Part shown: piece by piece, positions 35,109 through 57,417 of the stretch | Position numbering within the stretch: the stretch's first letter is position 1 | How the letters are laid out: every line of letters starts with the position of its first letter | Program-made: the position numbers and the translations under genes | Notes under the pieces: generated by a model | The model's input: the letters and a program-made list of their open reading frames with translations, nothing else | Database searches by the model: none | What the model was told of the DNA's origin: nothing | Assembly: GCA_020726505.1 (NCBI GenBank) | Contig: JAHLEZ010000007.1 | Span: 1,798,001-1,862,000, forward strand | Direction of reading: 5' to 3' | Origin: Leptodontidium sp. MPI-SDFR-AT-0119 | Lineage: Eukaryota; Ascomycota; Leotiomycetes; Helotiales; Leptodontidiaceae | DNA length: 64,000 nucleotides

Positions 35109-38100
35109 ATGCCACCGCAATGGCCCTGGTCGCGGAAAAGCCCAGCCTCGTCGCCTGTGAAGACCTTCCCTTCAGGCATCAAGTTGATGCATGAAGGAGA
35201 GAAAGATGTAGTTGAGTAAGTAGTTCTCTGCTATCTCCATAGGCTGGACTTAGGTTTTCTGCTCAGTTGCCTTAAGCGGTTCATGGTTGCTGATTTCAAG
35301 CAGCATCATTTTCATCCACGGTCTCACTGGAGATAGAGAGAGGACATGGACAGCGAAGCATGCACCTCTCCCGTGGATCAAGACCCTCCTTCCGCCCAAT
35401 ATTTCTCATGCTCGCATATTCACCTTCGGATACGACGCCTATGTGGCAGACTGGAGAGGGGTGGTCTCGAAAAATAGCGTTGGAAACCATTCAATGAACT
35501 TGATAACAGCCGTGGCTACATACAGAGATACGGACAATACGGTCAATATTGCCAGAGAAATCTCATTGGGAGCCGAAGCTGATTGCAGCAGAATACGCGC
35601 CCTATTATTTTTGTTTGTCATAGTTTGGGTGGGCTTGTCTGTAAGGATGTAAGACGTTCTGCTTGTATGCTACCAATTTCAGCTGACAGATACAAAAGGC
35701 TTTGATAGCCTCTCGACAACGACCAGAGAGGCATCTTCAGAACATATTTCTATCTACTCGTGGAATCGCGTTTCTTGGAAGCCCCCACAGCGGCGCTGGC
35801 CTGGCTGAGTGGGGAAGCAAGCTTGCAAAATCAATTGGGCTGCTTAAGCAGACAAATGCTCAGATTGTAGCGGTTCTTGAAACCGAGTCCGAGGTTCTTG
35901 CGCGTATCCAGGACAATTTCCATACCATGATTAGGTCACGCGAACAGCACGGTCTTTCTCCAATCTGGATTACCTGCTTTTATGAGGAATTGCCTTTGAC
36001 TGGCGTCGGAATCGTGAGTAAAACCATCCAGTAATCCCAGCTATGCGCATGGCTTATTTTCTAGGTTGTTCCTCACCACTCAGCCGTGATACCAGGTTAT
36101 ACTGGCATAGGGATACACAAACATCATAGGGATATGACAAAATTCGAGAGAGACGATGATCCGGGGTTTCTCGCTATTGTCGGAGAGCTTCGTCGTTGGA
36201 TAAGAGAGTTGACCATCGCAACTGCCAAGCCAATACCAACTGCGGTATCCTCCCAGAAGGCCCTACAAGAAGAGAGAAGAGATGCAGACGCGCAGATCGA
36301 GCATGAACAATGTATGTTCTGAAGACACGAGTGACCTGTTACTCAGCTAACCTACCAAAGCACCGTCATTTCAGTCGAGCAAGATTTCTGCTCGTAATTC
36401 GCTCATAAGCCCAAACATGCAGCAAACATTCTACAGCAACGTAGACCGGAGAACTGTTGGTAATTTTGTTACGCGACAAGAGGTGCAACAAGAGTTGACT
36501 CGCTGGCTCCTCAATGACTCGTCACCACGTCCGGTCGTACTATGTGGTATTGGTGGCTCGGGAAAGTCTCAGCTTGCGATACAATGCTGCCGAGAGGCCG
36601 AGGAGAGTGGCTATCTAGCTACTTTGTGGGTAGACTCATCAACACCGGCATCCGTTGAACAGAGCTATAATGCCATAGCCAAGGCACTCCACAAAGACTT
36701 TGCGGACGAAGATGACATTCAAACTACAATTTCTCTCGTCCAGGATACATTACGCAGCTGGCCGCAGAGATGGCTCATGGTCTTTGACAACTATGATAAT
36801 CCCAAAGTCTTTCGAAAGAGAAGTATCAGAGAATATATCCCAGAGAGCAAAAATGGGTTTATTCTCTTCACCAGCAGACATACTGGTTTGGAGCTTCTTG
36901 GTGGCGATCGAATCTCGGTCTCCAGTATGACCAAGTCTGAAAGTCTCGACCTCTTGCTACGTAGGCCTCCGAGCAATTCAGCTGAGGAAACCGACGGCTT
37001 GGCGATAGCCGATCTCCTTGGTCATCTAGCTTTGGCACTTGACCAAGCTGGAGCATACATCCGAGCGCGAAAACTACCTTTGGAAGACTTCATTTCACAT
37101 TACGAGAAGCGGAAGGATGTAATATTCAGAGAGGTTCCAGACGACTGGGAGTATCACGATCAGAGTGGTCCGCTTAGTGTGTCCACCACATGGGAAATGT
37201 CTTTCGGTCTTATCAGTGGCGACTCCGAGACAATTGCACGGAAGAACAATTTTCTAACCCTAGCTGGGTTTTTCGACCCAAACAGGATTTCCGAGAGATA
37301 CTTCCAGGCTTACTGCGATGCGGAGAAAGTTGAGTGGATGGATCTCTTTCGGGTTGATGGTCGGTGGGACAGCTATGAGCTTGGAGACGTCCTTGCTGAG
37401 CTTCATAAGCTTTCTCTTATACATCTACCGGATCAAGAATCAGGCGAGCGAAGCTTCACCATACATCCTATTGTTTGCGACTGGCTAGTCCATCGGCGGG
37501 GAAAGACTAAACAGCAGCAGATGATTATGGAGTTGATCCACGCACTTGCGGCATTTTTGAAGTGCTCCGAAGAGGAAGAGCTCCCGCTCGATGTGAATCA
37601 GGAAACCACCTTGCATCTTGATCGATGTATTAGCCATGCGAAGGCAGCTTTTGGAAAGAGTGACAAAGAAGGTCTTGCACTTCTTCCCGAAGTTACATCT
37701 CTTTTCGCTCGATTTTATCGCAGACAGGGTCGTTACGCCGATGCTGAGTTGCTTCTCAAGCTGGCACTGGCAGAAACTGAACGAGTGCTCGGAGTACAGC
37801 ACCCCGACTCTTTGAGAGCACTTGAGAGTTTGGCAATTGTCTCTCGCAGGCAGGGTAATTACAATATCGCTGAGCATTTGTTTAAGCGGGCTTTAGCTCG
37901 AAGGCAAGAGAATCTTACATCAGGTACAATCGACACGGTGGCAAGCAAGCATCTCTCAAGCGGTCAAAGCCGAAGTCAGGGCCGAGTAGATACTCTACGG
38001 ACGATCCAGAAGCTTGCAAATGTCTACAGTGACCAGGGCCGATATGATGAAGCCGAAGATCTATTCAAGCAATCGTTCAGGGGAATGGAGGAAAATCTTG

Positions 38101-40940
38101 GTTCAAATCATCTAGAGACGGTAAGCATCGGGCAGAATCTTGCCAACGTATACCAGAAGAGAGGCCGATATGATGATGCTGAGCTACTTTACCAACGCGC
38201 TTTGGAGGTAAAAGAGACAGAGCTGGGATCTGAACATCCAGACACGTTGGGAACCGTCGAGAACCTGGCGAACGTCTATCGAAAACAGCAACGGTATATG
38301 GAGGCCGAAAAGATGTTTTCGCGGTCAGTAATGAGTAAAGAGAAGAAACTTGGACCTGATCACCCTGATACCCTACGCGCTGTGCAGAATCTTGCCAATG
38401 TCTACAGCGATCAGGAGCAATACAATCAGGCAGAAGGCCTATATCGGCGCGCATTGGAGGGGAACGAAAAGTTATTGGGAATGGAGCATCCTGACACATT
38501 GCGAACTGTGGAGAACTTGGCTAATCTCTACTCTAAGTCCTTGTCGTTTTCTTCGAGGTATCTGGACCTGAGCCTCAGTCCCGTCACCCCTAGCCCCTCG
38601 ACATTGAAATCCAATGACGTTAATAAGCCTTCTTATGATCTGGCTCAACAGCTCCTCGAACGAGCGCTAGAAGGAAACAAGAGAAAAAGGGGACTCGACC
38701 ACCCAGATACTCTGGGTACCATGGAGAACTTGGCAATCATCTATTACAGGAATCGACATTATGAAAAGGCCGAAACACTACTAAAGCAAGCACTGGCTGG
38801 GAAGGAGAAGAGGGGACAAACCCGAACTACCGATACTTTACGAACGTTGAGAAATTTGGGAAATGTGCATTATAAGCTGGGCAGGTACGACGAAGCCGAA
38901 TTGGAATATAAGCGGGTACTGGATGGCAAAGAGTCACTGGAACAGCATGACATAAGAGGGACAATCCAGAGCCTGGGCCGCATCTATCGAAAGCAAGGTA
39001 GGCCTGAGGAGGCCGACCGGTTAGCGCTCTCATTGGAGGCAGCAACACCAGAAGCACACCCAGAGAAGAAGGAAGAACAAAATACAGCATCCGTAAGGGA
39101 CGTCGCCTCCGAACCAAAGAAGTCTGACCCCTCAAATGATCTAACGGTTCCTCTGCCGCGAGGCAGATTATCTATATCAGTACATCAGGGTCGAGGGCTA
39201 CGTCCAAGCGCAGAGCCTCGCATTATTTGTCAGTTCCAAGGGGCTACATTGATATCGCCGGGTCCGATGCTTGATGGTGATATTGAAGAAATCGAAGGTG
39301 ATTCTCGCAGGGGCAAGAAACCTGAAGCGAGAAATGCCAGAGAAGATATCGATCTGGCAAAGCCGATACCCACTCCATTGAGCCTTAAGAAACGTCAGAG
39401 GAGTGAAGAAAACTCATATCAGAGAGAGCCAAAAGAAATCAGGTGGATTGTAAATCCAAAGTGGAATTGGACTGTCACATTGTACGTTACTCCAAACAAT
39501 ATGATGTTAGTTCAGGATTTCAGACTGACCTTGGCACACAGTGATGTATTTGGTAATGATACCGATATAGATATGCAAGTGTATGACCGCTCCGACCTGG
39601 ACGCAACCTTCTTGGGTTCGGTTAGCTTCCGTCCAGAGTTGATTGAACCTCTCCTCCATGATGAGAAATGGCATTCTCTTCGTTCTCATGTTGGCGGGGA
39701 AAGCCCCAACATCACCGGCAAAGTCCTTCTGAGCATCGACTTTCAGAAGACGGAAAAGAACAACTATGGTCCCGAAGACTTCCAGATCACGAAGCTCATT
39801 GGCAAGGGGACATATGGACAAGTGTATCAGATGCAAAAGAAAGACACTCATCAGCTCTACGCCGTGAAAGTATGGTCAAAGACCGCCATGGGTAGGGTGC
39901 TGAAGGGAAGTCCAAAAACCGGCGATAGCTGGTACTCGAGGCCCCTTGTTTTCAGAATGCCATTTATAGCGGATACCAAATTCTCTTTTGAGACAGAAAC
40001 AGACTTGTATATCGCCACGAACTACATGTCTGGCGGGGAATTATTCTGGCATTTGCAGAAAGAAGGACGTTTCGACGAGGACCGCTCAAGATTCTACATT
40101 GCAGAAATTGTCCTCGCGCTTCAACATCTGCATAACCACGATATCATTTACCAAGATCTCAAGCCCGAGAATATCATGCTCGATGCCACAGGCCATATCA
40201 TGCTTTGCCATTTTGGACTCTCCAAGGGTTACATGTCCCCGACCAAGGGCAGAGATATGTCGACTGGCACAACCGAAGATGTCTTTTGCGGCACGACCGA
40301 ATACCTAGCGCCAGAGGCAATTCTCGATCCAAGTAGCTGCACGAACATGGTCAACTTTTGGAGCCTGGGTGTCCTGGTCTTTGAGATGTGCTGCGGCTGG
40401 AGTCCCTTCTACGCCGAAGACACGCAACAAATGTACCAAAATATAGCGTTCGGGAAAGTGAGATTCCCACGAAACACCCTTACCGTGGAAGGACGGAACT
40501 TTGTCAAAGGGCTACTGAATCGCAACCCTAGCCATCGCCTTGGATCGACTAGTGGTACAGAGGAGTTGAAACGTCATCCTTGGTTTGTTGCTACAGATTG
40601 GAACGCTGTTGCTCAAAAGCGAATCACTCCCCCTTTTATGCCGCGAATTTTGCCTGTCACCGATATCTCCGAGAAAGTCTTCGCCTTTGAAGGATCTTCC
40701 GATCTGGCAAGCAGAACAGCTGCATTGGCTGCTGGTGTTTCGTTATCGACTCCTCTGTCGCCCAGCATGCAAGCTAATTTCAAAGGTTTTACGTTTGTTG
40801 ATGAAGCAACTATGGATGAACATGTATATCAGCGACCAAATGAGTTTGATGGTAACGAGCTGCGCAATGGGAGGATGGACGGAGTAATGAGGACGGATGA
40901 CGATGAACGGTATAATTTACATCTATTCGATGGTACTTAG
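35109..40940 (+). CDS. NLR-like protein: SesB hydrolase / NB-ARC / TPR fused to a C2 and Sch9-like AGC pseudokinase
   Basis: Seven exons: 35109-35215, 35301-35541, 35589-35648, 35699-36013, 36065-36311, 36361-39481, 39542-40940, giving 1829 residues. The last intron is 60 nt and in frame. SesB-like alpha/beta hydrolase (about 35-290): IIFIHGLTGDRE, CHSLGGLVCKD (Ser128) and GIHKHHRDMTKF. NB-ARC (about 345-620): P-loop CGIGGSGKSQ (386-393) and Walker B WLMVFDN. TPRs (about 765-1215) follow a repeating HPDTL...NLANVY pattern. Then a linker, a C2 domain (about 1258-1430; GRLSISVHQGRGLRPS) and an AGC kinase fold (about 1442-1718) with GKGTYGQVY, CGTTEYLAPE and EMCCGWSPFYAEDTQQMY. An AGC tail with FKGFTFVDE ends it. 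The C2-kinase part closely follows the nutrient kinase Sch9/SckA. The kinase is degraded: HFG for DFG (His1587), YQD for HRD, alpha-C Glu segment gone, Asn1635 for the alpha-F Asp. Hydrolase-NB-ARC-TPR is a known fungal allorecognition layout; the kinase end is not part of it. Confidence 0.85.
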
Positions 40941-41582: not shown

Positions 41583-43985
41583 ATGAGTTCCACGCCGACG
41601 GAAGACTGGGCTCTTCAAGAACCAGCGCCTTCAGAAGTCAACATCTCACTCTCTAACAAGGTCAGCCCTGAACCCCCTCTGAATGCACTGGACGGTATCA
41701 TCTCTGCAGAAATTCCAGATGAGCGTCAGCATCCAGCACTCCGAGCAGTGGTCCTTCAAACTAATATGCATCACCAAATCACCACAATCGCGCCGTCTCC
41801 CGCTGCAACAAGAGCGGTCGTTGCATCTACGGCTTTCCTCATCGGCAAAGAGCAGTCCTTCATGTCTGACTTGCTTTGGCACTTCCGCCAGCAGCGCGAG
41901 CCTGTGATCAACAATTTGACATACACAGACTTCTACGCCCAGTACTACTTCACAACGCAGGACCGAGACCGTCCCTTTGGTCCTAATCAATGGATCATCC
42001 GCAATATGCAAACTCGACGTGGTCTGCGACGAAAGGTTCTAATTCGACGACAACAAGGGGCCAAGGTAGTAACACGCATACACTTAATCCCCCCGAGGAT
42101 CGGCGAGCTGTTCTAATTATGCGTCCTCCTCCAACATCGACTAGCATCGGGATTCGAAGACCTCCGAACCATCCACAATCGGCTCTATTCCACTTATCAA
42201 GAAGCTACCACAGCATTGGGGCTCTTTAAAGATGAATCAGAGGCAGTACGTGCCATGCGAGAAGCGTGGTCGCTTACTGCCGACCCGGCCAATTGCGATT
42301 TCTTTTCTCTCATTTGCTTTCGACCTTCCAACACCAGCCATCACGCTTTGGGAAACATTTAGAGAACCCTTGTCAGCAGACTTTGCGCTTAACAATAACG
42401 AAGACGAAGCTAATCGGCTCACACTGCAGACCATCTCCCGACACCTACAAAGCCAGGGAGCCAGCCTGGTACAGTTCGGACTAGCTGAGCAAGCACGAGT
42501 TGATTGCGAGGTGAACTTGGAATAGGATGCCTTCTTGCACCGTCGAGATGCGCTGCTTGAACAGAGTCAGGAGTCTTATCACATGATGAACACGGAACAA
42601 CGACATATCTTTGATCAAATCGATAACGCTATTGGAAGTGGAGGCTATTTCTTCCTCGACGGCAAAGCTGGACGAGGAAAGACTTTCTCAGTCAACGCCA
42701 TCTACAATCGGATCCGGGGCCAGGGCCGTATCTCTTGCATCACTGGCACAACTGCTTTAAGTGTGACACTCTACGAGAGAGGACGAACAGCTCACTCGAT
42801 GTTTGGCATTCCTGTGAATAAGAGCGCTTCCAACCTGGTTTCAAAGATCTCTGCCTTCTCTGGACGGGCAGAGGTACTGAAACGAGAAGATCTAATCGTG
42901 TGGGAAGAGTTTCCTATGGCTAACAAGGCGGCAATCGAATGTGTGGATTTTTTGCTCCGACAAATCATGAAAAATGAGCTCCCATTTGGAAACAAGACCT
43001 TTCTTACTCTTGGCGACTTCCGCCAGTTAACACCTGTCCTCCGCGATGTTACGGCCCCATGACAGCTCGATTCGATCCTCATGCCTCTGGACGAATTTCC
43101 AGATCTTACGATTAACGCAGCCAATTCGAAATGCGGGAGGTCCTGCCTACTCAGACTGGGTTGATCAGGTCGGAGACGGGGTTCCTCCCTTCGACAGTTG
43201 CATCTCGCTCGGCCATCTCTCCCAAGTCCAGTCGTTAGACGATGCAGCAGATTACTTATTCCCACCTGATATCCTTGCAAACCCGGAACAGGCAACCTTC
43301 TACTCCTTTCTCAATCCCCTTAACGTGTGTGTTGACGAGTTTAACCAGCTGATGATGAGTCGCATGTCCGAAACGGAAGGTATATATTCAAATCCTCGCC
43401 TCTAAACTCCTTGAACACGTATCCCAAGACTTATGTGTCTATGTTCTAGCTACGTATCTCAGTTACGACTGCGTAAAGGAAGTGGAGAATCCTGCTAATC
43501 AACTACCATCCGCCGTCGAATCGGACAACATTACAATGTTAAATGAACCAGGCGTGCCACCACACAAACTGCAATTAAAAGTTGGAGCAATATGCAGCAT
43601 CATGCGCAATATGTCTATCGAGAAAGGCTTGGTTAAGAATGCACGAGTTTGCATTCTCGAGCTCTACTGGTATATTGTGCAAGTGGAACTACTACACTCG
43701 GCCTCACTACTCACTGACGACCAATGCTTTTACCTTCCCCGCATTAACTTTGACTTCCACCCACAACATACCAGTTGGACGGTGGAACAGCGTCAGTTCC
43801 CTCTCCGCCTGTCCTACGCAACCACATTCAATAGCTGCCAAGAACTAACCCTAGACAAAGTCGTCCTTGACTTGACTAACCCAGTCTTTGCCCACGGCCA
43901 GCTATATACCAGCCTGTCTCTAGTCCGTCGCAGCTCTGACATCCGTGTGCTCCTCGCACCTGAGAACGATAATTGTGAGACGGTT
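41583..43985 (+). pseudogene. Helitron Pif1-like helicase pseudogene
   Basis: The C-terminal helicase half of a fungal Helitron Rep/Helicase is recognisable. Upstream are RRKVLIRRQQGAKVVTRIH and GFEDLRTIHNRLYSTYQEAT. Walker A follows as FLDGKAGRGKTF (about 42655-42690), then CITGTTALS, GRTAHSMFGIPV and TLGDFRQLTPV. Further on are LTQPIRNAGGPAYSDWVDQV, GVPPHKLQLKVGAICSIMRN, FPLRLSYATTFNSCQELTLD and FAHGQLYTSLSLVRR. Stops at 42114-42116, 42523-42525 and near 43060, plus frameshifts near 42300 and 43400, break it. The reading ends at a 33-C homopolymer. The Rep nuclease half is absent, so the element could not move itself. Confidence 0.85.
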
Positions 43986-43990
43986 AATGT

Positions 43991-43994
<4 letters not shown>

Positions 43995-44027
<33 letters not shown>
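43995..44027 (+). repeat. Poly(C) homopolymer of 33 bases
   Basis: An uninterrupted run of 33 C follows the helicase remnant directly. Read in frame it would give polyproline, which is not a protein feature here. The length suggests slippage, or an assembly artefact at a junction. Confidence 0.9.
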
Positions 44028-44117
44028 AGCTTTTCCTGCCGCCAGAAACTATATAAGGCAATACCTTCATGTTCTTCACTACTTTTGCCGTGCGATCGTC
44101 GTAGATTATTCACGCAA

Positions 44118-44335
44118 TTAGGATACAGTTCCGTGGATACTCTCTGCGTGATTCTGGAGATGCTGCTTGTGCTGCAGCTCCATTCGACAGACCTTGCACC
44201 GGAGCCGATGTCCTTCTTTAATATAAGCCAAATACTTCCGCTTAAAGTGCTTCGTCAAGTCTCCCGGACTAGCAAGCTTATACGTACGCTTCTTAGCTGC
44301 AAGTTCTGTTCTCCTAAGCAAAGGAAGCAAGTAAT
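44118..44335 (-). pseudogene. C-terminal zinc-finger tail of a DUF3435 (FluG-annotated) protein
   Basis: The minus strand reads KLASPGDLTKHFKRKYLAYI, then CKVCRMELQHKQHLQNHAESIHG and a stop. In another frame just upstream is CFLCLG. C-x2-C, SPGDLTKHFKRKHL and a final CxxC...HLQNHAxxIHG are the tail of a family of transposon-borne fungal proteins, often mislabelled FluG-domain proteins, related to DUF3435 recombinases. Only the tail remains and it is frameshifted. It sits in opposite orientation to the Helitron helicase. Confidence 0.6.
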
Positions 44336-44830
44336 AGTACTTTTCTTTATAAACACTATTAATATAGTATTACTTAACGCTTGCTTCTTAGCCTTAGCGG
44401 CTATTAGCTACGGATTAGTTACCTTCGACGGCGTCAAACTTGCCTTTAATAAAGACGGCCTCGCGCGTGGTCAGGCACCGGCTCCCCCTTCTTGGAAGTA
44501 GTAATAGGCAACTATTATATCGATAGCCGCATTACGATAACGGAACTCCTCTTTTATAATCGTTCCCAGGAGCATTATTATTACTAGCCAGAAATAGACA
44601 AAAGTTCTGACACACTAAAGCTCCCAGGTCGATACGCGCGAGAAGTAGAGTGACTCGGGTCCGCGAAGCTTTCAGCTCTCCTGACTATGAAGGCATAGTG
44701 GTGTCTTTCAACCAGAGGGTAAAGCACTTGCCCCCTATTCAATTCTCTAGAAAATAAACCAAAATTGCGCGCTACACATAAAAAAGCTAGCGGTAATTAG
44801 AATTGAGCCTATAGTCTGCATTCTCAATTA
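44336..44830. other. Intergenic region, nothing recognisable
   Basis: AT-rich at first, then mixed composition; no gene or clear repeat end was identified. Confidence 0.4.
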
Positions 44831-45853
44831 TGGCTTCCTCAACTTCGAGAGACTCCATTCCGGCCCGACGGCATGTCAAGATAACTTCGCCAACATTTCC
44901 TTAAAGACAGACGCAGGGTCTTGCTTTGGCAAGACTGTTTTCATCACAGGTGCCGCCGCTGGTATTGGACAGGCCAGTGCTGTTCTGTTTGCCACTGCGG
45001 GAGCGGATCGAATTACCCTTGCGGATTATATCGATGCTACCATCACGCGTATCAGCGCTCTAAAGGCCGCTGGAAAGCCTGTTCCAGAGATCATCATTCT
45101 GAGCATCGACGTTCGCAATGTTCAGAGCATCGAGGCTGGGCTCGGGGAGATGACCGCCCACTGGGGACACATTGACATTCTCATCAATAATCCAGGAAAT
45201 TTACCGGAGGCTGAGATCCAGTCCCCATCTCTCGCTGCCAAAGACATAGAACTTTGGAGGTTTACTTGGGAATCCCATATCAAAGGCACCTACTCGGTCA
45301 CTCGAGCGCTAATCCCTTTACTCCTTCAAGGGACAGACATGACCGTGGTCAATGTGACTTCCATCGGTCTACCCGTGGCAACACTAGGAGCTCGCAGATA
45401 TTAGCTGTCCAGACAGTCTATTGAATCATTATCCGAGGACCTCGTGCTTACCTGCGGAAAAGAAGGCCTGTTGGCCTACTCCATGTATGCAGGGCCGAAG
45501 ACGATGTATGTGTATGAGAATTCGAGGTTTGCGAATGACGAAGGTACGTTGAACAACCGACCAATCTTGACCTGCTCGATGCAAGCTAGAACTGAGCCGA
45601 ATTTAAAGTGGCTTTTGGTGACGAGCAAGTTGAGCATGCTAGCGATCTCCTCGTCTCCCTCACGAGCAAGCGGCGCGAATGGCTGTTTGGGAGGAAAATC
45701 AGCTCTGCTTGGAGCATGCGCGAGTTGCTGGCTCGTAAAAGTGAGATAATCCGCGACGATCTTTTGAAGAACGACCTCTCTTTCAAAACGCTGGTTCGCG
45801 ATACCAAGCAGGCAGATCAGAGAATTCGAGGAGTCCCCCGAAGCAGTTACTGA
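44831..45853 (+). pseudogene. Short-chain dehydrogenase pseudogene
   Basis: From 44904 one frame reads GKTVFITGAAAGIGQASAVL (cofactor loop), LADYID, SIDVRN, HIDILINNPGN and VTSIGLPVATLG. The catalytic YxxxK is damaged: Tyr is followed by TAG (45402-45404) where Gln is usual, and the Lys has become Arg. Further on the frame reads ESLSEDLVLTCGKEGLLAYS. The C-terminal RREWLFGRKISSAW and KSEIIRDDLLKNDL typical of this subfamily appear only in a different frame (about 45675-45780). So there is one nonsense change, at least one frameshift and active-site erosion. The NAG motif is altered to NPG. Confidence 0.8.
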
Positions 45854-46536
45854 TTCAGCGAGCACATGACATGGTCATGAGTCTTCTAACGAGGAATTTT
45901 GCCTGTAATCTAGATATTAGTATCAGGACTAGTTGAGATTCACAATTCGGATCAGAACTTTGGCCCCTCAGAGCTCGCTCCTCTGCCAGTGGGCAGGGCA
46001 GGATATTCCCACAATCAAAGACTCTCCAAGACGCTCTCTTTGTGTTTCTGTCTCCAGTTCTCGTCTCGTATCTTGTCCAATATAATGTACAGATCGAATA
46101 TGCATAAGCAGTTCCCGTGGTAGTGCCGGGCCGGCATTTTGGGTTCGATTGGCTTCGGTATTTCATGTTGTGCCGATGTCCTGCTGGGGGGCCGGGCCGT
46201 TGAGGCTGCGACGTGCGGAAGGTGAGTAGGAGGCGTGGCGGCTTGCAGGAGCGGCGCCAAGAAGCTATTCCCAAAGCAGCCAACAATATCGGATTGGTCA
46301 AGCAAGCGACAGGTGGCTTAGGGGTTCCCAAAAGGGACTACAATACAGGATTGGTTACCCAGGGAGAGCATCCTCAGTGAAGATGTAACAAAAAAAATCA
46401 AATGACATTCCATTAGCGGAGATATGATATGGAATAAATAATTCACCCTTTCCTTCCACTCAAACACAGATAAAACAAAAAATCCGGTATTCTTTCCTCG
46501 TCAACTTCGACTTCGTTCTCATCAACAACCGGTAAG
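45854..46536. other. Intergenic region, likely promoter of the downstream SDR
   Basis: Overlapping minus-strand frames at 45855-46331 have no recognisable content. Nothing else is seen. Confidence 0.4.
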
Positions 46537-47646
46537 ATGGTGATGCTACGACTGACCGCGGAGCAGTACAGAACCCTGCCTATCGTCGCAAACGACGAGA
46601 TATGCTTTGGAAAGACCTACATCATCACAGGCAGCAACAGCGGTCTGGGATTAGAGACGGCGCGGCATCTTGTCGAATTCCAAGCCGCGCGCGTTGTGCT
46701 GGCAGTACGAAACCTGGTTGCAGGAGAGACAGCTAAGAATGACATCGAGAAGACGACAAAACGCACCGGAGTTGTAGAGGTAAGTAATGTCGAAGTCTGG
46801 AGAGGGATTCTTGAGCTAATTCTCCTGGCAGATCATGCACCTTGATATGGCATCCTCACCATCTATCAAGAGCTTCGTTCAGAAAGTCTCGACGGATTTC
46901 GACCGAATCGATGGTTTTGTGTGCAACGCCGGCGTCATGATAGACCAGTGGGCGGATGTCGAGGGCATGGAGAGCAGCATGGCGATAAATGTGGTCAATA
47001 CTTTGCAACTGGGTATTCTCCTGATGCCAAAGCTGAGCGCGGTGGCGAAAAAGCACGGAATTCATCCTACTCTCGTCTTCGTCGTCAGTGTCCTGGGATA
47101 TACCGCCAAGGCTGAGCTGGGTAAGAGTCGCAAAGGCAATATCTTTGACGGCCTCAACAACCAGCAGCGAGCGAACATGGACCAACGGTAAGGAGGCAGC
47201 GACCCCGCCCCCGCATTTGTATCGCGCTGACGTATAATTTCATCAGATATCCCCTCACCAAAATTGTCGAAGAGTTTGCCGTGCGTGAATTTGCTGCCCT
47301 CCATCCAGTTGAAAAGACCGGCATCATTATGAATCTAGTTGCTCCTGGTCTCTGCTCGACTGGCCTGGGCAAGGAGGCACGAACCTTCACTAAGATTATG
47401 CACAGCGGGATCAAGGCTATGATGGCCCGAACTGCGGAGGAGGGAAGTCGCACCATTCTTCACGGTCTGGTTGCTGGTGATGAGAGTCATGGAAAGCTTC
47501 TGTCGGGTTGTAAGATCAAGGAGTTCTGGGTTCCAGACTGGGTCAGCAATGCCGAAGGCCAACTTCTGCAGAAGAACATCTGGAAGGAGCTCACTGAGAG
47601 ACTGGAGAAGACACAACCTGGATGTGTTTCGCAGCTTTCTCAGTAA
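46537..47646 (+). CDS. Short-chain dehydrogenase (retinol-dehydrogenase-like), intact
   Basis: Three exons, 46537-46779, 46832-47187 and 47247-47646, give 332 residues. The cofactor motif is YIITGSNSGLGLETARHL. AVRN, LDMASSPSIKSF, VCNAGVM and the SVLGY serine region follow. The active-site Tyr-Lys pair, YPLTK, begins directly after the second splice, where the split Arg codon is completed. A C-terminal extension after LVAPGLCSTGLG contains aromatic GCKIKEFWVPDW, common in fungal SDRs of this subtype. Substrate unknown. It is the only intact gene between 41 and 55 kb, surrounded by broken ones, so it may be a survivor of a former cluster. Confidence 0.88.
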
Positions 47647-48075
47647 GATCCATCTTCGTGTTGTATTAGTTTTTTTCTCCTCTTTCTGAAAGCAACTTCT
47701 AGCTTTTATTCGAGGCAAATTGCTCTTTTCAAGCTGTCCCAAAGACTTCCGCAAGTTAGAGATAGTACTTACTCCTAATTCAACATCAATGATTATACCT
47801 GCCCTGATGCATACACGAGGAGGCAGGAGGGAGGCACACGGGTTTGTGCGCCTCCTGCCCTAGCACGCATATGCCGGCCACCACTCGCTCCTCAGGTCCT
47901 GCCACTCTTGGTCTGACGCTGACATGGGTTCTGGATGGCCATTACAGCGCAGGAATCACTGCATCTTACTGGCCCAGCTCTCTCCTGTGCCGCTCGGCCC
48001 CATGAACGCCAATTTCGACCCTATCGTTCTTAAGCACTTGTCTTCGGCGGCACATTATCTAGTCAAGCCAGAAAG
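47647..48075. other. Intergenic region, nothing recognisable
   Basis: No gene. Contains a short GC-rich inverted stretch (gaggaggcaggaggg / gcgcctcctgccc, about 47817-47860) that could act in termination. Confidence 0.4.
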
Positions 48076-49285
48076 ATGGGAGAACGCAGGAAATGGATGG
48101 CCGAGGAAGATGAGATCCTGCGGAGGGAGGTCTCGTTGCAAGGTAGGAACAACCACGCTGCTAGTAATCATCACTCATACATGCTCACACTACTCACTCG
48201 CCAGTCGAGATCGGCCAGCTCAAGCAATAGAACCTGGTCGCAGCCGAGCTCTCCGGACGGACGAACAAAGGCTGCCGGAAGCGGTGGGCAAAACTCGACA
48301 ACAATGTCAAGAAAGAGGCCTGGAGCACGTCTGAGAACGAGAAATTACACGCTGCAGTCCAGGAGCTGGGGTGCAAGTACCTCTGCTCGACGATGCCCGA
48401 ACCCGCGGCGTTCATATCATTGACGCATCACTTACAGGTGGACCAAAGTTGCGAAGCTAGTCAGCACTCGGCATGCAGACCGTGAGTTGGATTGCAGACC
48501 GTGAGTTGGAGTTCCATTGGGAAATCAGTGCGATCTAGGATCGTGTATTTACTTACACATTCGCTTGCTGGCGATCAATGCGTGCGTGCAGGGAATCTCT
48601 TCTAACGTTACTTTAAAATGTGCTAAGCGCTGGTAAAATTCCTTGGATCCGAACGTCGACCCTAGCAAATGGGATGACAACAACGAGAAACTGCTCAGTT
48701 GTGTCTAACGCCTGGGCCGGAACTGGACCGCTATCCGGGAAAAATGCTTCCCGAATCGAACGACCACGGATCTCAAAAATCGGTCAGTCTTCCCAGAAAC
48801 CAGATGTCTGGTATCATAGCAATGCGTTTACGCCGGTGAACAGCTATAACTTGTTGATTCGCAAGCAACGGCGAGCGGTCGAAGCCGCTGCCCCGGCTGC
48901 GATTTCTGGGAACCCTCAAATAGGTATTGATGGCCGGGGAAGCCCCCGAAATGCAGCAAATGAAGACTACGAGAATGATGTTGAATTGGAAGATGAAGAA
49001 GAAGACCTGGAAGAGGAAGCGGACGATGAATATGAAGAAGGGGAAGAATCTCAAATTGAGAGACCCGACAGACCCGTTCAGACCTCACTTAACCCGTCGG
49101 TGGACTCGTTTGTCCAGACCCTTGAGAACGGGGGGGACAATATGCCACGCAACACCCTGGATTATGCGGGAATAGAAAGTTACTTTCTTGATTTCGGAGA
49201 TTTAATCTCGAATCCGCAATCGCCCATGGCCTTGTCGTCGAACATCAAAGATGGCCTCGATGGGTGGGATAGCAACCCCGAACAA
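48076..49285 (+). pseudogene. MYB-type (SANT repeats) transcription factor pseudogene
   Basis: Successive MYB repeats are visible across several introns. The first, RRKWMAEEDEILRREVSLQ, is followed by an intron and then ELSGRTNKGCRKRW. The second, EAWSTSENEKLHAAVQELG, runs into WTKVAKLVSTRHADR. A third, KWDDNNEKLLSCV, runs into LGRNWTAIREKCFPNRTTTD. An acidic tail (EDEEEDLEEEADDEYEEGEE) follows. Stops at 48228-48230, 48634-48636 and 48706-48708 fall inside the repeats, the last where CAA (Gln) fits. A tandem duplication of gcagaccgtgagttgga near 48474-48510 copies an apparent exon end with its splice donor. The reading frame of the acidic tail continues without a stop into the adenylation domain that follows. 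Confidence 0.75.
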
Positions 49286-52200
49286 TTCATGCCTCTATCT
49301 GGCTTTGTACGGGTGACGCATTTGCAACTTGCGCAGGCGGTCGGGAAGTGCTCAGAATGGCTCGTGCAAAACGTTGGAGAACTGAGGCGGCCCTGGCGTG
49401 ACGAGAGCGGAGCCTCTCGCAAAGGTCCTCCTATTGCTCTCTTGATGGAGAGCGACGTGGGGATTCTATTTCACTTGTTTGCGTTTATGACACTGGGTGT
49501 TCCTGTGAGTTGGCGAGGACATGTCATAATATGCCTCGAACTCACAGATCATAGGTCGTGTTACTGTCTGCCCGTCTCAGCCCAGCCGCAATCGCCCATC
49601 TGCTCACCAAAACATCAGCCTGTGCTATCATAGCGTCTCCAAATCTTCAAAACACCGCAAGCGAGGGTTTGGATCTATTGCAAGGCCCGGATGTGAATCG
49701 GCTTTCGCTATACTCACCCAAGCCGTACGAGACATTCATTGTGGATCAGAACACTCCAAGCGACCCGGATGCGAACGTTTTGAATCCAGATCCAGATCAT
49801 TACGTTGATCAGAGGGATCGAGATGTGATTATTCTGCATTCTTCGGGTACGACTGGGCTTCCGAAGCCTGTGTACACCTCGCATGAATATTGGATTGGCT
49901 ATGCAACTTGTCATGCTTTCCAGGACGAGGAAGCCACTCGCGGTTTGAATACCACCACTCTTCCACTTTACCATGTATGCCCACCCAGATGTTACTGAAG
50001 AGAGCTCTCTGACTTGAGAAACTACAGGGAATTGGTCTTCATTGCCTTGCGCTCTCGATGAGCATTGGCCATACAATGGTCTTGCCTCCTCCTTCAACAG
50101 TTTCCAATGGCTTCTCGACAACGGAGTTACTGGCTTCGACAGGCGCAACATCTCTGATGACGGTGCCGATGATTCTAGAAGAGATCGTGAACTTGCCAGA
50201 GGGGAGAGGGATCGAGGCTCTCCTCAGACTAAGATACGTGGCTTTCGGGGGTGGGCCCCTGAAGCGTTCTATAGGAGAGAAACTAGCGGGACTGTTGAAG
50301 AATTACGGGCTTACTGAAGTTGGACTCCTGGGTCTGATATTCAACCCAACGCCCGATACCGATTGGAATTACTTTACTTTGCGACCGGATATTGGCTTCA
50401 AACTAATTGAACTTGAGGATTCGACGGTTGAGAATAGAACGTACCGGCGTGTCGGCTGTCCTGCGGGTTGGAGGGAAACATTAGAGGTACAAGATAAGCT
50501 CTTTGGCAACCCCAATAATCCGCATGAATTCAATCCCGTGGGACGGTCGTATGACCTCATTATACTGAATACTGGAGAAAAGGTGCTACCCGCAGTTCTA
50601 GAGAGTCTTTTGGTGGAGAGTGGACTAATCAATGCTGCAATAACTTTTGGCGGTGGACGATTCGAACTTGGTATCATCATTGAGCTGACTGAGCCGCAAC
50701 AGCCCGATCAGTATGACGATTTCAAATCCAAGATCTGGCTATTGGTCGCAGAGGCTGGGTAAAAAATGGACAATCATGCCCAGATTTCTTCCCAAACGCC
50801 ATCATCGTTATGCCACCCAGAAAGAAATGCTACGGTCGGACAAAGGTTCGGTTCTTCGAAGAGGTACAATTGCCAAGTTTGAGCAAGAGATCAAGGAGGT
50901 CTACATGCTGCTCAAAAAGGATACGCATGGAGGCGAGATTTCTCTTCTTGACATGACTCGATTGGAGCGAAGCCTTAGGAACTTGCTACAGCAAGACCTG
51001 CATTGGAAAATGTCCGAGAACAAATGGTGCGATCAAGACGACCTGTTCGAACTGGGGATGGACTCCTTACAAGCCACGAGAGTTCGCCGGTTGATACTGC
51101 GCTCGATACCCGAGAAGGAACCTAGCCTAAGAGACAGGATAGGTGCGGATTTTGTCTACCGCTTCCCTAGTATCAGCATGATGGCTGATCGCTTAAGGAG
51201 TGAGGCCTCTGCTGACTCCAGTCTGAGCTCCGGGGCGAATCTGCTCCAAGACTACGTTGATCAATATTCAACGAGGATAATATCCATACCACCTAGGGCG
51301 GTTATCTTACTGACTGACGGAACGGGAAATCTTGGATCTCATCTGCTAGCTCATCTGGCGTCCCTTCCTGACGTCGCCGTTATAATCTGCCTCAATCGTC
51401 CGCATTCCATCAACGCGCGCTCGTCCAGAACAGACAATGGCTTCTAAAGGTATTAAGATCTCCGAAATCGCGTGGGAAAAGATAACAGTCTTGCAAATCA
51501 ATACCGCCGCTCCAGCTTTGGGGCTACAGAGCTCAGAATACCGACAGGTTCTGGGCAAAGTCGCGCACATCCTCCATAAAGCGTGGACTATGGACTTTAA
51601 TAGATCGATTTCGTCCTTCAAGGAGTAATTCAAAGCTCTTGAAAATCTGTGCAATCTAGCCCCGAATGCAAACATCATCCGTCCAAACATCAAGCCCAGA
51701 ATCTTGTTCACCTCCTCCATCGGCATCGTGGGGCAATACAATCTCATCCACGGAGGCGAGAATAGACGATGCAGCTTGCACCAACGAATTCGGGTACGGA
51801 CAAGCCAAGCTCGTGTGCGAAAGGATCCTGGAGAATATCTCCGGTCAGTATCCCCATCAGATAGAAGCTGGCTATGTCCGGGTGGGCCAGATCTCCGGAT
51901 CAACGACCTCAGGATTCTAGAACAGCAGCGAGCATTTCCCGGTTCTTGCCAAGTCCTCTCAACTCGTGGGCAAGCTACCCCCAATGAAAAGCCTGCTCTC
52001 GTAGCTGCCGGTCGATCTGGAAGCGCAGTCGATTTCTGAATTGCTTCTCGCTCCGGCCGGATATGAGAAGTGTATGGTGTTTCATATCCAGAACCCCGTC
52101 ATGCAGGCAACCGATGAGGTCTACGATGTTATCCTGTCCAAGCTTGGCCCAGATTGCAGCCTGGCTGAGTCCTTCAAGGAGTGGCTAGGGGCGGTCTATA

Positions 52201-52457
52201 GAGCTCCGGATGAGGGAACCAGTAGCGTGGGAAAGGATTGCAGGAAGGATGCAGCTTCTTACCCGGCTGCAAAATTAGCAGAGTTCTTCAGAAATGACTT
52301 CCAGCGTATGGGCGATGTCGTAATGGGTACCGCTCAAGCCAGAAAACTATCGCCGACGCTGGAGGACATGGGTCCGGTGAGCGCGGAAACCATTGGGAAC
52401 TATGTGGATTATTGGAAGCGGGAGGGGTTTCTCAGCTGGAACGATGTCTTGAGTTGA
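49286..52457 (+). pseudogene. NRPS-like carboxylic acid reductase (A-T-R) pseudogene
   Basis: Domains in order. The adenylation domain shows VTHLQLAQAVGKCSEWL, then, after a 50-nt intron (about 49505-49554), VLLSARLSPAAIAHLL, the A3 core VIILHSSGTTGLPKPVY, FGGGPLKR and NYGLTEVG. The thiolation domain has DDLFELGMDSLQATRVRRL (about 51040-51090). The thioester-reductase domain begins VILLTDGTGNLGSHLLAHL (about 51300) and carries on as ILFTSSIGIVGQY and FGYGQAKLVCERIL in shifting frames, to a C-terminal reductase end near 52457. Breaks include TAA at 50760-50762, a frameshift near 50800, stops at 51445-51447 and about 51626, and further frameshifts. The first residues of the A domain are replaced by the MYB tail. 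Intact homologues activate and reduce aryl or alkyl acids to aldehydes. Confidence 0.8.
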
Positions 52458-53284
52458 CGTCAGGGAAGGGGATTGCCTTGGGTTAGAACACGGCTCTTCC
52501 CTTTAGGTAGCTACACGAACACTAAAGAGCTACTCTCTCTTGATTCCCCTTACGATTGACGAATAATCTTGCTAGAAGATATGACCATGAAGTTCGAACA
52601 GGGGGGGTACAGAATAGCTCGTAGGCAAAACAGAATTGTTTTCAGAGAGTACAGGTGGCAGAGACAAGGAGAGAAGCCTACGCGGAGTGTGATTTTATCA
52701 TCTAGCAAATTTGCATCTGCTATTTTTCTTGCAGCTGGTATTGTGTCTATCCTTGGAGTAAATCAAAAAATTTGATCGAAGTAAACATGATGTACTAATG
52801 CACCTGAGAAAAGCGACTGGTGATGGACCTGACCACAAGGCAAAATAGCAAGGCTGCTTGCTTTCAGAAAAGAACAAAAAATAAAATAAAAAAAACATTT
52901 CGGTCTGCAGCCAAGTCTCTCGCTGAGACTCGTAAGTAAGCCTTTGCTGCTCTGTATCACAGTGGGTCTTGCCATGCAGTTTAGCAAGTCTCGGGTCTCG
53001 GTGCCTCTCTGACGAAAGCTGACTAGAACAAGGCAGCAAGCCGCTGTTTGCTCCACAAGTAAAGCTCCTCCTGGGAGATGCTCACTCGGTGCCTTCCAGG
53101 ATTCCTGGCCCCTCAGGACCCGAGTAAGAGGCTGTAGTCTGCGACCAAGGCTGACTGGACCCGCAGGTCAGCGCGAAAGCGTGGAAAGAATACTGAATCG
53201 AATGACTTCTGTGCTGGCGAACAAACAACAAAGATTCAACTCTATTGTCCAGGGCGCATTTTCAACCCATCGTATCCATCCATA
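52458..53284. other. Intergenic region, nothing recognisable
   Basis: No supportable gene on either strand; short A-rich tracts near 52865-52900. Confidence 0.4.
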
Positions 53285-54926
53285 ATGGTCCCATCCCTCC
53301 TCCTGTGCGGACCTCAGACGAACCTGCCGAGTGCGAAATATCTCGGCCGGATTCGTCAATCCCTGCTGAGCCAGGCGCGTCTCCGCGACTTCCTTGCTGC
53401 AATCGATGGCCTTCCGAGAATATGGGGCTTGCTCCTCGGGCATCGGCCTCAATTGGGCTCTGTTCCTGGTTTGGAGTGTATTGGTGCCATTAGAAAGTGG
53501 CTTAGCGAGGGAGTTCCTCTCAATCCACCGCGGGAGGCATTGAATGTCTTTTACACTCCTCTAACAGTCGTATTTCAAATCGTTGAGTACATGACGTATT
53601 TCGAAAGAAACCGTGAAGGAATCACACATTCGTCGATATTAGAGGCCGCAAAGTCAGCCGGGATCCAGGGTTTCTGCACTGGGTTCCTGACCGCTGTCGC
53701 AATTTCGCTGTCCGAGGACGAAGAAAACATCTCTAGATTCGGAGGGATCGCTTTGCGCCTAGCATTGTGCATTGGGGCCTTCGTCGACTTAGCTGGCCCG
53801 TTTGCTCGTCCCCCGTTAGAGACATCCTGCCTGAGTGTGAGATTGAGAGATCCGGAAAAATACACCTAGTCGAAGAAATTATTGCCAAGCACCCAGACGG
53901 GAGTATGGACGGGTCCGTAATACAAGCAAGAGATAATAACATTACTTAGACGTACATATCTGTCGTTTCAGACAAGAGCAGTTACACTATAACCCTACCA
54001 AAGACCAGACATTTAGATTTGGCAACTCATTTTCATCGCAAGACATTGTGGCCAAGAGCCTCGCGCTTGAGGGCGTCTTCCACAGCCAGAACAACACGGA
54101 AATCAAACAACGCCTTTTGGCTTTCGTTACCTCGCAGAAGGATCTTCAATTACCGGACGCCTCCAAGCTGTTTCTCCTGTTGAGATCCAACACGACCGGC
54201 CAGGTCGTTAAAACTGGAAATCTAGAAAAGGCCGCCGTGGAGTCTCTCGTCGTGGAAATGTCAGACTGGAATTCAACGACCACAACTGCTATTTCATCTT
54301 TGGAAGACACAACTTCCAGTACTCTACTCACTATTGGTCCAATGCCAAGCATCTCAGCATCGACAGTTCGAGATGCTCCCGTCACACTGTCCATCCAAAG
54401 CGGTACAGGATTTCTACTAGAGACCCAAGTGAATGCTGCTTCCATTGCACCACTAATCTCGACAGCCTCGGAATATCATTATCCGGAGAAATTCTGTGGC
54501 TATCGTTGGAATGGCATGTAGATTTCCAGGTGCAGCTTCGCTCGAGGAGTTCTGGAACGTGATTAGCTCCGGAGCTTCAATGGTAGGAGACGTTCCACCA
54601 GAGCGATTTTCTACAGAGAATCTATGGATGAAATTAATCACGATACTTCCTTTGAAGATATTGGGATTGATTCTCTCATGGTAAATGAAGTATTGAGTGA
54701 ACTGCATCAGAGTCTGGGCTGTGAAATCCCGCTTGAAGATTTCCGGCAGCTTCAAGATATCAATGGTTTGATTAATTATATCCAAGACCGACAGCCACTA
54801 TCCAGCGATGATAATTCGACCTTTTCAAAGTCTGGAACACTAATGACAATTACTTCCCTAACCTCGTTAGACTGCTCGGACGACGAGATCGCAACATCAA
54901 AACCTTACGTCGTGACCTTGCGGTGA
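53285..54926 (+). pseudogene. Non-reducing PKS remnant: SAT domain, KS stub and ACP (internal deletion)
   Basis: The first part is a SAT (starter-unit acyltransferase) domain: LSRIRQ-like start (LGRIRQSLLSQARLRDFL), VPGLECIGAIRKWLSEGVPL, FYTPLTVVFQIVEYMTYF, GIQGFCTGFLTAVA, ALRLALCIGAFVDLAGP and SCLSVRLRD, then frameshifted YISVVSDKSSYTITLPK and LALEGVFHSQNNTEI. Around 54500 a KS domain starts normally (SVAIVGMACRFPGAASLEEF) but stops after about 45 residues, near 54625. An ACP core, DTSFEDIGIDSLMVNEVL, follows immediately. Almost all of KS and the whole AT and PT are missing, as is anything after the ACP, where the frame ends at 54926. No assembly-line function is possible. It is unrelated to the HR-PKS at 12-20 kb. 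Confidence 0.85.
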
Positions 54927-55125: not shown

Positions 55126-57417
55126 TTAAGTTTCTCCATCTATAACCATCCCCCCATACACCTTTTGCCCCTTTCGTAAGACCCACCCCTTGCTGTTCCC
55201 GCCAGGGAGGTTCCCCAAATCCCAGCACGGGCACCCGAAGATAGCATGCCGCATTTTAACTTGCCATATGCCCTCCCCATCCTCGCGACCAGCATCGTTT
55301 TTCGGTTCGTGCTCCTTGGGTTCCGAGGGTAATAATGATGGTTCCGAGGAAGAGAATGACGGGGATAGAGTAAATGGCTCGATGGCCCAGACCCGTTTGT
55401 GCCATCCCGGCAAGTGTGCAATAGCTGCCGGGACCGCAATTCGGAGCTTGTCCCCGGAGAACGACGTAATAGCAGAGCCGCCCAGCTGTGGCCCGACCTC
55501 AATACGTCGAGGGAACATGGTAAAGAAAATAAGACGATTGTCGAGAAGACAAGTCATACATCTTATTACGGCCTTTAATGTCTGGTCATCGTTGGCGTCG
55601 GCTGAAAAGAAAGCCAGCACGGAGCGTGCCGCATCGGTGAGGATAGGATTAGCTATTTCGCCCAGCGTCCCAAACGTCCATCTGTCCCTTGTATCAGCCA
55701 GCATCGCATCTGGGAACTGCTTAATCCAGTCCAGGCCACAGTCGAGAGCGAGCGCAAGCCAGGCCGTAAGAGAATCACTAAAAGGGCCAGGTCCCGGACG
55801 ATTAGCTACGGCGATATTGTCCAAGAGTCGGAGGTTTTCAACCGCCTTTTCGATGGCGCTTGCTGTAAAATCGTCCGTGGCCATAAAATCCTTGGCCACC
55901 TCTTGTAGACAGTGTTTATTGATAATCGTCTCCGCCGCTTGCATTGCAAAAGACGAAGGCGGTATTGGGAATGTATCGAACACTAGCAGATCCAACTCAA
56001 TGTACTCCCCCGTGACGGCCGTTATCGATTCTGGCATCGTAAGCTTTTCTCGATTTCCCAAAACGGATCGCGGGGGCTTAACAGCCCAAGAGATCATCTT
56101 CCTCCCTCCCTGGTTAGTGATTTCAAGTTTGGACCCCATCATCACGAGGGGGGTCAAGTCACCCGTTGCGAGCACTAGTATGGAAAAGATCCACAGCAAG
56201 TCTGCTTCTCCTACGTTATCTCCCTCAAGCTTAAAGACAATGGGAAGACGTGCCGTGTTAAGCGCTATAGAGACTAGATCTTGTTTGTACTTGCATCCAG
56301 ATGACAGGACGTTCACAAAGTGCTCCATGGCCGATACCTCCGGGTCTACTTCCGCCCTCAGCCGCACCATGCGATACCACAGCTGCTGCAGCGTCGTCGG
56401 ATTTGGTTTGTCGAGGTTTTCAAACGGGTTGTCGATGTTGCAAGGCCCTTGGCTATGCAGGTACATCGCGATATAGTACAGGCAACGGAACTCGAAGTCC
56501 AGGACTTTAGTGTGACCAAAGCACAGGAAGAGCGGGTTGTTAACCTTGAGGTGGCGCGCCATGCGGCTCTCGTGTAAGCACCACGCTCTGCTAAACCACC
56601 GGGCACTGAGGATCTTGCAGGCAAAATCCTTGGCATCCTCAATGATATGTGCCTTTCCTTCTTCGCGCAGCTCTTGCTCGCGCCGGGGGAAGTACTGCTG
56701 TATGAACTGCCCCTTCGCGGCACCTTGCAGCCCTCTCGTGTTGGTCTCTCGGCTCAAGTCGTGGTAGAACTGGGCGTAGGCGAGCCCGGCGGCATCTTCC
56801 CTAGCAGAGAGCTTGATATCTTCCAACAAGATGACGACGCGGCGGGCCGAGTGGTAGATGGTGTCCATAGCGCCGACCAGGTCGACCTTTTCTGCCTGGT
56901 CGGTCTGTTGAATGCATAACTTGTCAAGCCAGACACCTTCCAAGCCTCCCTGTGCATCGGGGACGCGGCGGACATGGCTCATAACGACGTCCATCATGGG
57001 GCGGGAGATGTCCCATCCCGGCACGATGGGGTTGGCGGCGTCAGCGGGGAGCCACTGGTGTTCGAGTGGGGTCGAGTTGTCGGTGTGCCAGCAGTAGCTA
57101 ACGGCAATAAAAGAGGTGATTTTGGGAGCAGACGCGCCATTAGGCATAGATGACTTCGGGAGGATTACACGTAGGTTGAGAGTCGAGATGTCGCTCTTCT
57201 TGGGCTGAAAGCTGTCTTTTAGAGTGGCGTTGAGCTCGCCCATGCGTTCGAGGATCACCGTTGCCGGGACAGCACTTGCATGCAGGCCCTCCTCTGCCGC
57301 CTCAGAGAGAAGCTCCCTGATATCTCCCCGAGGGAGGTCGACGAGGACCTGGCCTTCATCGACGAGGTAGGTGAGGGTTTGGAGTTGGGCATAGCTGGAT
57401 TGCGATGCCGCCATCAT
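55126..57417 (-). CDS. HET-domain (heterokaryon incompatibility) protein
   Basis: A single uninterrupted frame of 763 residues. The HET core shows ITSFIAVSYCWH (about 100-111), then GVWLDKLCIQQTDQAEK, the equivalent of the WxDxxCIDQ segment. MDTIYHSARRVVILLEDI and LSARWFSRAWCLHESRMAR complete the core. The long C-terminal half has no repeat architecture that I recognise. HET domains trigger regulated cell death when non-self is sensed, usually downstream of an NLR or a paired partner. Here the gene is intact while most of its upstream neighbours are broken. It starts at tandem ATGs (57417 and 57414); a second, truncated HET copy lies 650 bp beyond its start in divergent orientation. The partner is unknown. 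Confidence 0.88.
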   Translation of the reverse strand: MMAASQSSYAQLQTLTYLVDEGQVLVDLPRGDIRELLSEAAEEGLHASAVPATVILERMGELNATLKDSFQPKKSDISTLNLRVILPKSSMPNGASAPKITSFIAVSYCWHTDNSTPLEHQWLPADAANPIVPGWDISRPMMDVVMSHVRRVPDAQGGLEGVWLDKLCIQQTDQAEKVDLVGAMDTIYHSARRVVILLEDIKLSAREDAAGLAYAQFYHDLSRETNTRGLQGAAKGQFIQQYFPRREQELREEGKAHIIEDAKDFACKILSARWFSRAWCLHESRMARHLKVNNPLFLCFGHTKVLDFEFRCLYYIAMYLHSQGPCNIDNPFENLDKPNPTTLQQLWYRMVRLRAEVDPEVSAMEHFVNVLSSGCKYKQDLVSIALNTARLPIVFKLEGDNVGEADLLWIFSILVLATGDLTPLVMMGSKLEITNQGGRKMISWAVKPPRSVLGNREKLTMPESITAVTGEYIELDLLVFDTFPIPPSSFAMQAAETIINKHCLQEVAKDFMATDDFTASAIEKAVENLRLLDNIAVANRPGPGPFSDSLTAWLALALDCGLDWIKQFPDAMLADTRDRWTFGTLGEIANPILTDAARSVLAFFSADANDDQTLKAVIRCMTCLLDNRLIFFTMFPRRIEVGPQLGGSAITSFSGDKLRIAVPAAIAHLPGWHKRVWAIEPFTLSPSFSSSEPSLLPSEPKEHEPKNDAGREDGEGIWQVKMRHAIFGCPCWDLGNLPGGNSKGWVLRKGQKVYGGMVIDGET

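Follow-up and report, generated by a model that had tools for sequence, protein, structure and literature searches.

A window of 64,000 nucleotides from the helotialean fungus Leptodontidium sp. MPI-SDFR-AT-0119 (part of contig C67, GenBank JAHLEZ010000007.1; genome of 77 Mb in 69 contigs) carries a gene that joins a fungal NOD-like receptor (NLR), composed of a SesB-like hydrolase, an NB-ARC domain and TPRs, to a copy of most of the AGC kinase Sch9. The Sch9-derived part, here called the module, comprises the C2 domain, the kinase domain and the C-terminal tail; it has lost key catalytic residues while its C-lobe and tail have been kept by selection, and the fusion is found in related proteins. 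An integrated decoy or sensor is, with moderate confidence, the leading explanation for this pseudokinase module. The elements of the gene are given below, where own Sch9 denotes the Sch9 of the same genome (L010), P0240 a database protein with a related kinase half and dN the nonsynonymous divergence.

35109-40940, + strand: whole gene, seven exons (splice model)
35109-35215, 35304-35541 and 35589 or 35592-35648, + strand: exons 1 to 3
35690-36013, 36065-36311, 36361-39481 and 39542-40940 (including the stop codon), + strand: exons 4 to 7
35304-36217, + strand: SesB-like alpha/beta hydrolase, the N-terminal effector, with serine motif CHSLGG and histidine motif HxxM (Abhydrolase_6)
36486-36986, + strand: NB-ARC domain with P-loop GIGGSGKS and Walker-B-like WLMVFDNYD (PF00931, E 1.4e-8)
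37704-39011, + strand: TPR array, limits approximate (TPR_10, TPR_12, TPR_NPHP3)
39150-39758, + strand: C2 domain from Sch9, split by an intron (PF00168, E 4.9e-6, spliced)
39482-39541, + strand: intron of 60 nt in C2, GTACGT...CACACAG, same position and phase as the Sch9 intron
39783-40586, + strand: AGC pseudokinase domain (Pkinase, E 4.5e-53)
39882-39956, + strand: helix-C/beta-4 stretch replaced, without the helix-C Glu (4/23 residues identical to own Sch9)
40152-40154, + strand: HRD Arg changed to Gln (YQD), Asp kept (P0240 retains the Arg)
40209-40211, + strand: DFG Asp changed to His (HFG; same His in P0240)
40281-40283, + strand: activation-loop Thr changed to Val (Asp in P0240)
40719-40805, + strand: turn and hydrophobic motifs kept, STPLSP...FKGFTFVDE (27/32 residues identical to own Sch9, dN 0.11)

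The fusion had been proposed in a sequence-only reading of this DNA and is confirmed, at the level of sequence, as real and as one gene. The frame 36351-40940 stays open for 1529 codons and crosses the TPR-C2 junction, in agreement with the claim that no stop interrupts it, and the splice model closes in frame with five upstream exons; the length first given, 1829 residues, becomes 1830 or 1831, depending on the choice of acceptor (35591 or 35588). Pfam profiles place the domains in the order alpha/beta hydrolase, NB-ARC, TPRs, C2, AGC kinase and C-terminal tail. Two splice sites are weak, namely the donor of intron 2 (GTCAAT, 35542) and the acceptor of intron 5 (AAAG, 36360), and the hydrolase part is therefore less certain than the remainder of the gene. 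The intron that had been predicted at 39482-39541 bears splice signals, and at the matching position and phase own Sch9 contains 52 nt that likewise bear intron signals. In the window this intron is in frame and free of stops, unlike the frame of the related protein P0121, which meets a stop a few codons into it; unspliced read-through is also possible, and a retained intron would add 20 residues inside the C2 domain. Two separate genes, or an artefact of assembly or annotation at the TPR-C2 junction, could be suspected from the weak sites of introns 2 and 5, and both are hardly credible given the single stop-free frame that crosses the junction in the window, in P0001 and in P0121, P0122 and P0123. 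P0001 (a database protein of 1507 residues with 9 member sequences) is identical to window positions 36417-40937 and comes from 2 contigs, the longest of 10.7 kb, that is, other than the 3-Mb contig of the window. An assembly error at the junction, which had been named beforehand as grounds for abandoning the fusion, is thus unlikely, since P0001 and the three related proteins all cross it in one frame.

The receptor part presents the effector domain, the NB-ARC with its P-loop and the C-terminal repeats of a fungal NLR (signal transduction ATPase with numerous domains, STAND) of the SesB/NB-ARC/TPR class, and profile matches to Abhydrolase_6, NB-ARC and TPR bear out the architecture first read from the letters. 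The hydrolase match on the spliced piece lies just above the profile's cut-off (E 1.3e-5; 26.4 bits against 26.3). Exons 2 to 5 give tblastn matches, in the expected frames, to the N-termini of related NLRs, which backs the hydrolase reading. The HxxM motif is common to 4/5 relatives in the spliced hydrolase alignment, and HSLGG occurs in one of the five (P0130), the other four being gapped or different there. The P-loop pattern was found in 7/7 and the Walker-B pattern in 6/7 NLR rows checked, the window included. In the genome as a whole, 54 NB-ARC matches were counted; the best-scoring relative of the fusion NLR among them (C9) is 33% identical over 662 residues, so that no near duplicate of the gene occurs among the matches scored.

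The module derives from Sch9, as had been proposed. Among solved structures the kinase matches AKT2/AKT1 best (E ~1e-67), and in the organism's own genome the top match outside the gene itself is own Sch9, with 61% identity over the kinase part and 60% over 448 exon-2 residues. The alignment extends over residues 321-900 of the 905 of own Sch9, i.e. all except the N-terminal part. Both proteins have C2, AGC kinase and tail with an intron at the same position, whereas own Sch9 has in addition ~320 N-terminal residues and the catalytic residues, both missing from the module. The shared position and phase of the intron suggest that genomic DNA, and not a spliced message, was the template of the copy. 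Exon 2 of own Sch9 is 98% identical to Cadophora P0250, P0006 and two further database proteins. In the tree, the branch that leads to the window and P0240 measures 2.27 changes per site and joins Leotio- and Sordariomycetes (96/86); approximately unbiased (AU) tests rejected none of the placements tested at 0.05 (Leotio 0.42, Sordario 0.43, Lecanoro 0.15, own/Cadophora/Drepanopeziza clade 0.14, Dothideo 0.079, Eurotio 0.066), and the place and time of the Sch9 capture are therefore not fixed by the tree.

The kinase had been described as a complete AGC kinase; this holds for its length and fails for its key catalytic residues (HFG, helix C, activation-loop Thr). The comparison rests on an alignment of 241 rows (238 listed hits together with the window, P0240 and own Sch9, with P0001 and the NLR hits left out), in which the Sch9 rows are the best-scoring hits (at most the best 120 of 1109 and the best 120 of 2252) and so do not sample Sch9 at random. 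The helix-C Glu, the DFG Asp and the activation-loop Thr are present in all 239 aligned Sch9 rows and gone in both fusion kinases seen, those of the window and P0240. The window further has VNFW in place of VDFW, where P0240 keeps the D. Both retain the beta-3 Lys, the HRD Asp and the KPEN Asn. Compared with an active Sch9/AGC kinase, the module has the beta-3 Lys, the HRD Asp and the hydrophobic motif and lacks the helix-C Glu, the DFG Asp and the activation-loop Thr. These motifs are linked to catalysis in kinases generally, and unusual motifs do occur in some active kinases; that of the window looks catalytically dead. Exon 2 was modelled twice with AlphaFold2, from 31 and from 72 sequences; both models are weak (mean predicted local distance difference test, pLDDT, 51.9 and 53.8), with a confident helix C in neither, from which no inference is drawn. 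Foldseek matched the second model to the AGC kinases AKT, SGK1, PKA, S6K1 and RSK2 (query-normalised template modelling score, TM, 0.42-0.49 among the best 50 rows), an outcome of modelling that only repeats the sequence result.

To judge from its pattern of divergence, the module is constrained, part of the Sch9 copy being kept by selection. Synonymous sites are saturated between the window and own Sch9 (92/119 four-fold sites differ; proportion of synonymous differences, pS, 0.87), which precludes an exact dN/dS; some of the difference arose on the branch of Sch9. Nonsynonymous divergence from own Sch9 is low in helices F-I of the C-lobe (dN 0.14; 71/86 residues identical), in the catalytic-loop part (0.18; 37/49) and in the turn and hydrophobic motifs, and high in C2 (0.77-0.84; 31/96 and 22/69) and helix C (1.10 over 23 codons); identity amounts to 27/39 in beta 1-3, 32/40 in the hinge, 12/22 in the activation loop and 21/48 in the AGC tail. 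A functionless relic, in which the Sch9 copy decays after fusion and the NLR part alone matters, would account for the lost catalytic residues and for the strongly changed C2 and helix C (dN 0.77-1.10). This is very unlikely: the frame is intact in the window, and dN stays at 0.11-0.14 in helices F-I and the tail motifs despite saturated synonymous sites. Neutral drift was moreover rejected, since 0/500 simulated sequences remained stop-free (mean 9.6 stops) when own Sch9 was allowed to drift neutrally down to 60% identity by substitutions only, without indels. At 230 columns Sch9 shows an invariance of at least 99% and neither copy has a gap. The window and P0240 both retain the Sch9 residue at 152 of these columns and both depart from it at 46, sharing the new letter at 30, while a single copy has changed at the remaining 32; with 46 of the 78 changed columns changed in both, much of the decay probably predates the split of the two. 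Recent gene conversion with own Sch9 was rejected as the source of the conserved C-lobe, 22/29 four-fold sites in helices F-I being different. Repeat-induced point mutation (RIP) was likewise dismissed as the source of the divergence: the indices of the kinase part (TpA/ApT 0.60; (CpA+TpG)/(ApC+GpT) 1.33) are not RIP-like by the usual thresholds.

The fusion is inherited, as read from related sequences, and the architecture that had been suggested for a search elsewhere was recovered. The search with the NLR part returned P0121, P0122 and P0123 (88%, 78% and 54% identical over the query, respectively). In each of them a single frame connects NB-ARC/TPR to the C2 half and ends just beyond the start of the intron. 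P0121 and P0240, the latter from the exon-2 search, share the contig count and the longest contig (7757 bp), and the end of the one and the start of the other stem from the same stretch of DNA, read in two ways (17 compatible codons including the stop, a single offset found); the kinase half therefore directly follows the C2 half in that relative. Its frame breaks at the position of the window's intron, and the kinase half then carries the same HFG. Among the NLR relatives (P0121-P0239, the best 119 of 155) the C2 half was found at E < 1e-5 in these three only; many rows are unspliced database frames, so absence of the C2 half is weaker evidence than its presence. A distantly related kinase stands at the N-terminus of another of the listed relatives, P0235. 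In the tree built from 32 NB-ARC rows, the window, P0121, P0122 and P0123 fall into one clade (100/98), adjoined by P0127 and Elaphomyces P0129, in neither of which the C2 half was found. The best 120 hits of the exon-2 search did not include a kinase half for P0122 or P0123. The added domain has accordingly been retained over time, its C2 half in a clade of four and its kinase half in two members.

With catalytic residues lost and the motifs of the C-lobe and tail kept, the module would offer the faces that meet Sch9 partners without doing Sch9 work, which gives it a bait-like look; on sequence grounds the Sch9 copy thus serves more probably as bait or sensor than as an enzyme. As in integrated decoys, a domain resembling a host protein stands in one gene with an NLR. 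The bait copied from Sch9 that had been envisaged earlier keeps its NLR architecture, its Sch9 origin and its decoy-like sense and loses its intact kinase; the missing catalytic residues, which that reading overlooked, strengthen the decoy-like interpretation. By analogy with other receptors, the TPR/C2/kinase end probably senses and the hydrolase acts. Whatever acts on Sch9, by binding or modification, at the C-lobe of the kinase and the C-terminal tail would also meet the module; candidate ligands are proteins of a mycovirus or of a competitor and, after hyphal fusion, an unlike self protein. Such contact could disturb the TPR/NB-ARC switch, upon which the receptor would oligomerise and the N-terminal hydrolase act, probably killing the cell. 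Among the longer segments, the linker (62% identical) and the C2 half (66%) have diverged most between the window and P0121, the NB-ARC part being at 91%, as expected of a sensing end.

Several points weigh against a decoy or sensor. Rapid change can equally reflect weak constraint, pseudokinases may retain the C-lobe simply for folding, so that the conservation pattern is not specific to a bait, and the kinase half was seen in one relative only, P0122 and P0123 showing just the C2 half. Among the best 8 of 374 papers, the literature search found no report of Sch9 being attacked by anything in fungi; an apparent link between Sch9 and a mycovirus (PMC11898685) was discarded, as it goes back to the strain name SCH941A1 and the word Sch9 occurs 0 times.

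A regulatory or adaptor role inside the receptor (autoinhibition, scaffolding, membrane placement by C2), with no outside bait, is rather unlikely. The conserved C-lobe and tail suit folding and docking, and the passages available of PMC10455444 consider autoinhibition by the C2 and N-terminal parts within Sch9 itself; however, the presence of the C2 half in so few of the listed NLR relatives, many of them unspliced rows, implies that this receptor type presumably works without it, and its rapid change, together with that of the linker, is unusual for a conserved regulatory contact. It is decidedly unlikely that the module is a dummy substrate reporting the upstream kinases of Sch9 (TORC1, Pho85/Bur1), and slightly more doubtful still that the NLR watches TORC1-Sch9 through this dead substrate and is switched on by lost input when a competitor or virus attacks TORC1. 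In such a scheme a block of TORC1, e.g. by a rapamycin-type competitor toxin, would remove the phosphate from the turn and hydrophobic motifs and the receptor would fire. The retention of these motifs alongside the loss of helix C, DFG and activation-loop Thr fits the scheme, and STPLSP presumably bears the counterparts of T723 and S726 of yeast Sch9. P0240, however, has STFLSP, without the TP. In the parts available of PMC10455444, T723, S726 and T737 near the C-terminus of yeast Sch9 are phosphosites, the hydrophobic motif is FAGFTF and the N-terminal part is disordered and membrane-binding; the fusion lacks an equivalent of that region and of the vacuolar location, which phosphorylation by TORC1 requires. 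The preferred explanation thus remains an integrated decoy or sensor.

The surroundings of the gene were also inspected. Fragments of a PIF1-like helicase lie in separate frames at 42526-44498 on the + strand, ~1.6 kb downstream:

42526-43059, + strand: PF05970 (E 4.7e-37)
43359-44498, + strand: Pif1_2B (E 1.9e-7)

The genome holds 52 PIF1 matches, most with several internal stops. Helitron-type capture, hinted at by this relic, was rejected, as nothing ties it to the fusion. About 14 kb from the NLR gene, a 767-residue frame on the - strand (55129-57429) carries a heterokaryon incompatibility (HET) domain (E 2.4e-16). Pieces of a reducing polyketide synthase, a berberine-bridge-type FAD oxidase, a P450 and an ankyrin-repeat protein at 12468-33121 likely form a secondary-metabolite cluster, and a short-chain dehydrogenase with fragments of an AMP-binding enzyme and a starter-unit acyltransferase (SAT) at 44751-53866 possibly represent a second, broken one.

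What fungal NLRs detect is largely open, and the Sch9 copy names a candidate pathway, TORC1-Sch9, and offers through the module a direct route to screening for its binders. Literature searches, which covered neither preprints nor most subscription papers, showed, among at most the best 20 papers of each, no report of an NLR-Sch9 fusion and no other fungal NLR for which both a loss of catalytic residues and selection on the surface that is left are documented; Sch9 is not mentioned in the passages available of PMC9815663 and PMC12881547. The sesB-like/NB-ARC/TPR arrangement is a known core and PKinase an annotated domain in the portion available of PMC4986451, where Podospora Pa_2_10340 has the same core without a Sch9 module in the architecture listed. 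Neurospora PLP-1/SEC-9, treated together with guarding in PMC10197012 (Sch9 mentioned 0 times), is likewise a fungal NLR with a lipase-type death domain, and what it recognises in allorecognition is a conserved housekeeping protein; the domain of PLP-1 is a patatin and SEC-9 is a separate protein, whereas the receptor of the window contains its own copy of the conserved protein. In Arabidopsis ZAR1-ZED1, according to the part available of PMC6634424, a pseudokinase akin to effector-targeted kinases likewise feeds an NLR, ZED1 being a separate plant protein and the window pseudokinase fused. The decoy idea has its fungal precedent in nine T-NACHT NLRs of Sordariales (Chaetomiaceae/Podosporaceae) with C-terminal CHK-2-like kinase domains, candidate integrated decoys according to the passages available (PMC12258605, PLoS Genet 2025). 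These too place a host kinase at the C-terminus of a fungal NLR, but on a T-NACHT receptor instead of a SesB/NB-ARC/TPR one with a Sch9-derived C2 and AGC module; a test of catalytic residues is not reported in that part of the paper, whereas the window module has lost its key residues. Together with the CHK-2 case, the fusion described here would be a second, separate capture of a kinase by fungal NLRs.

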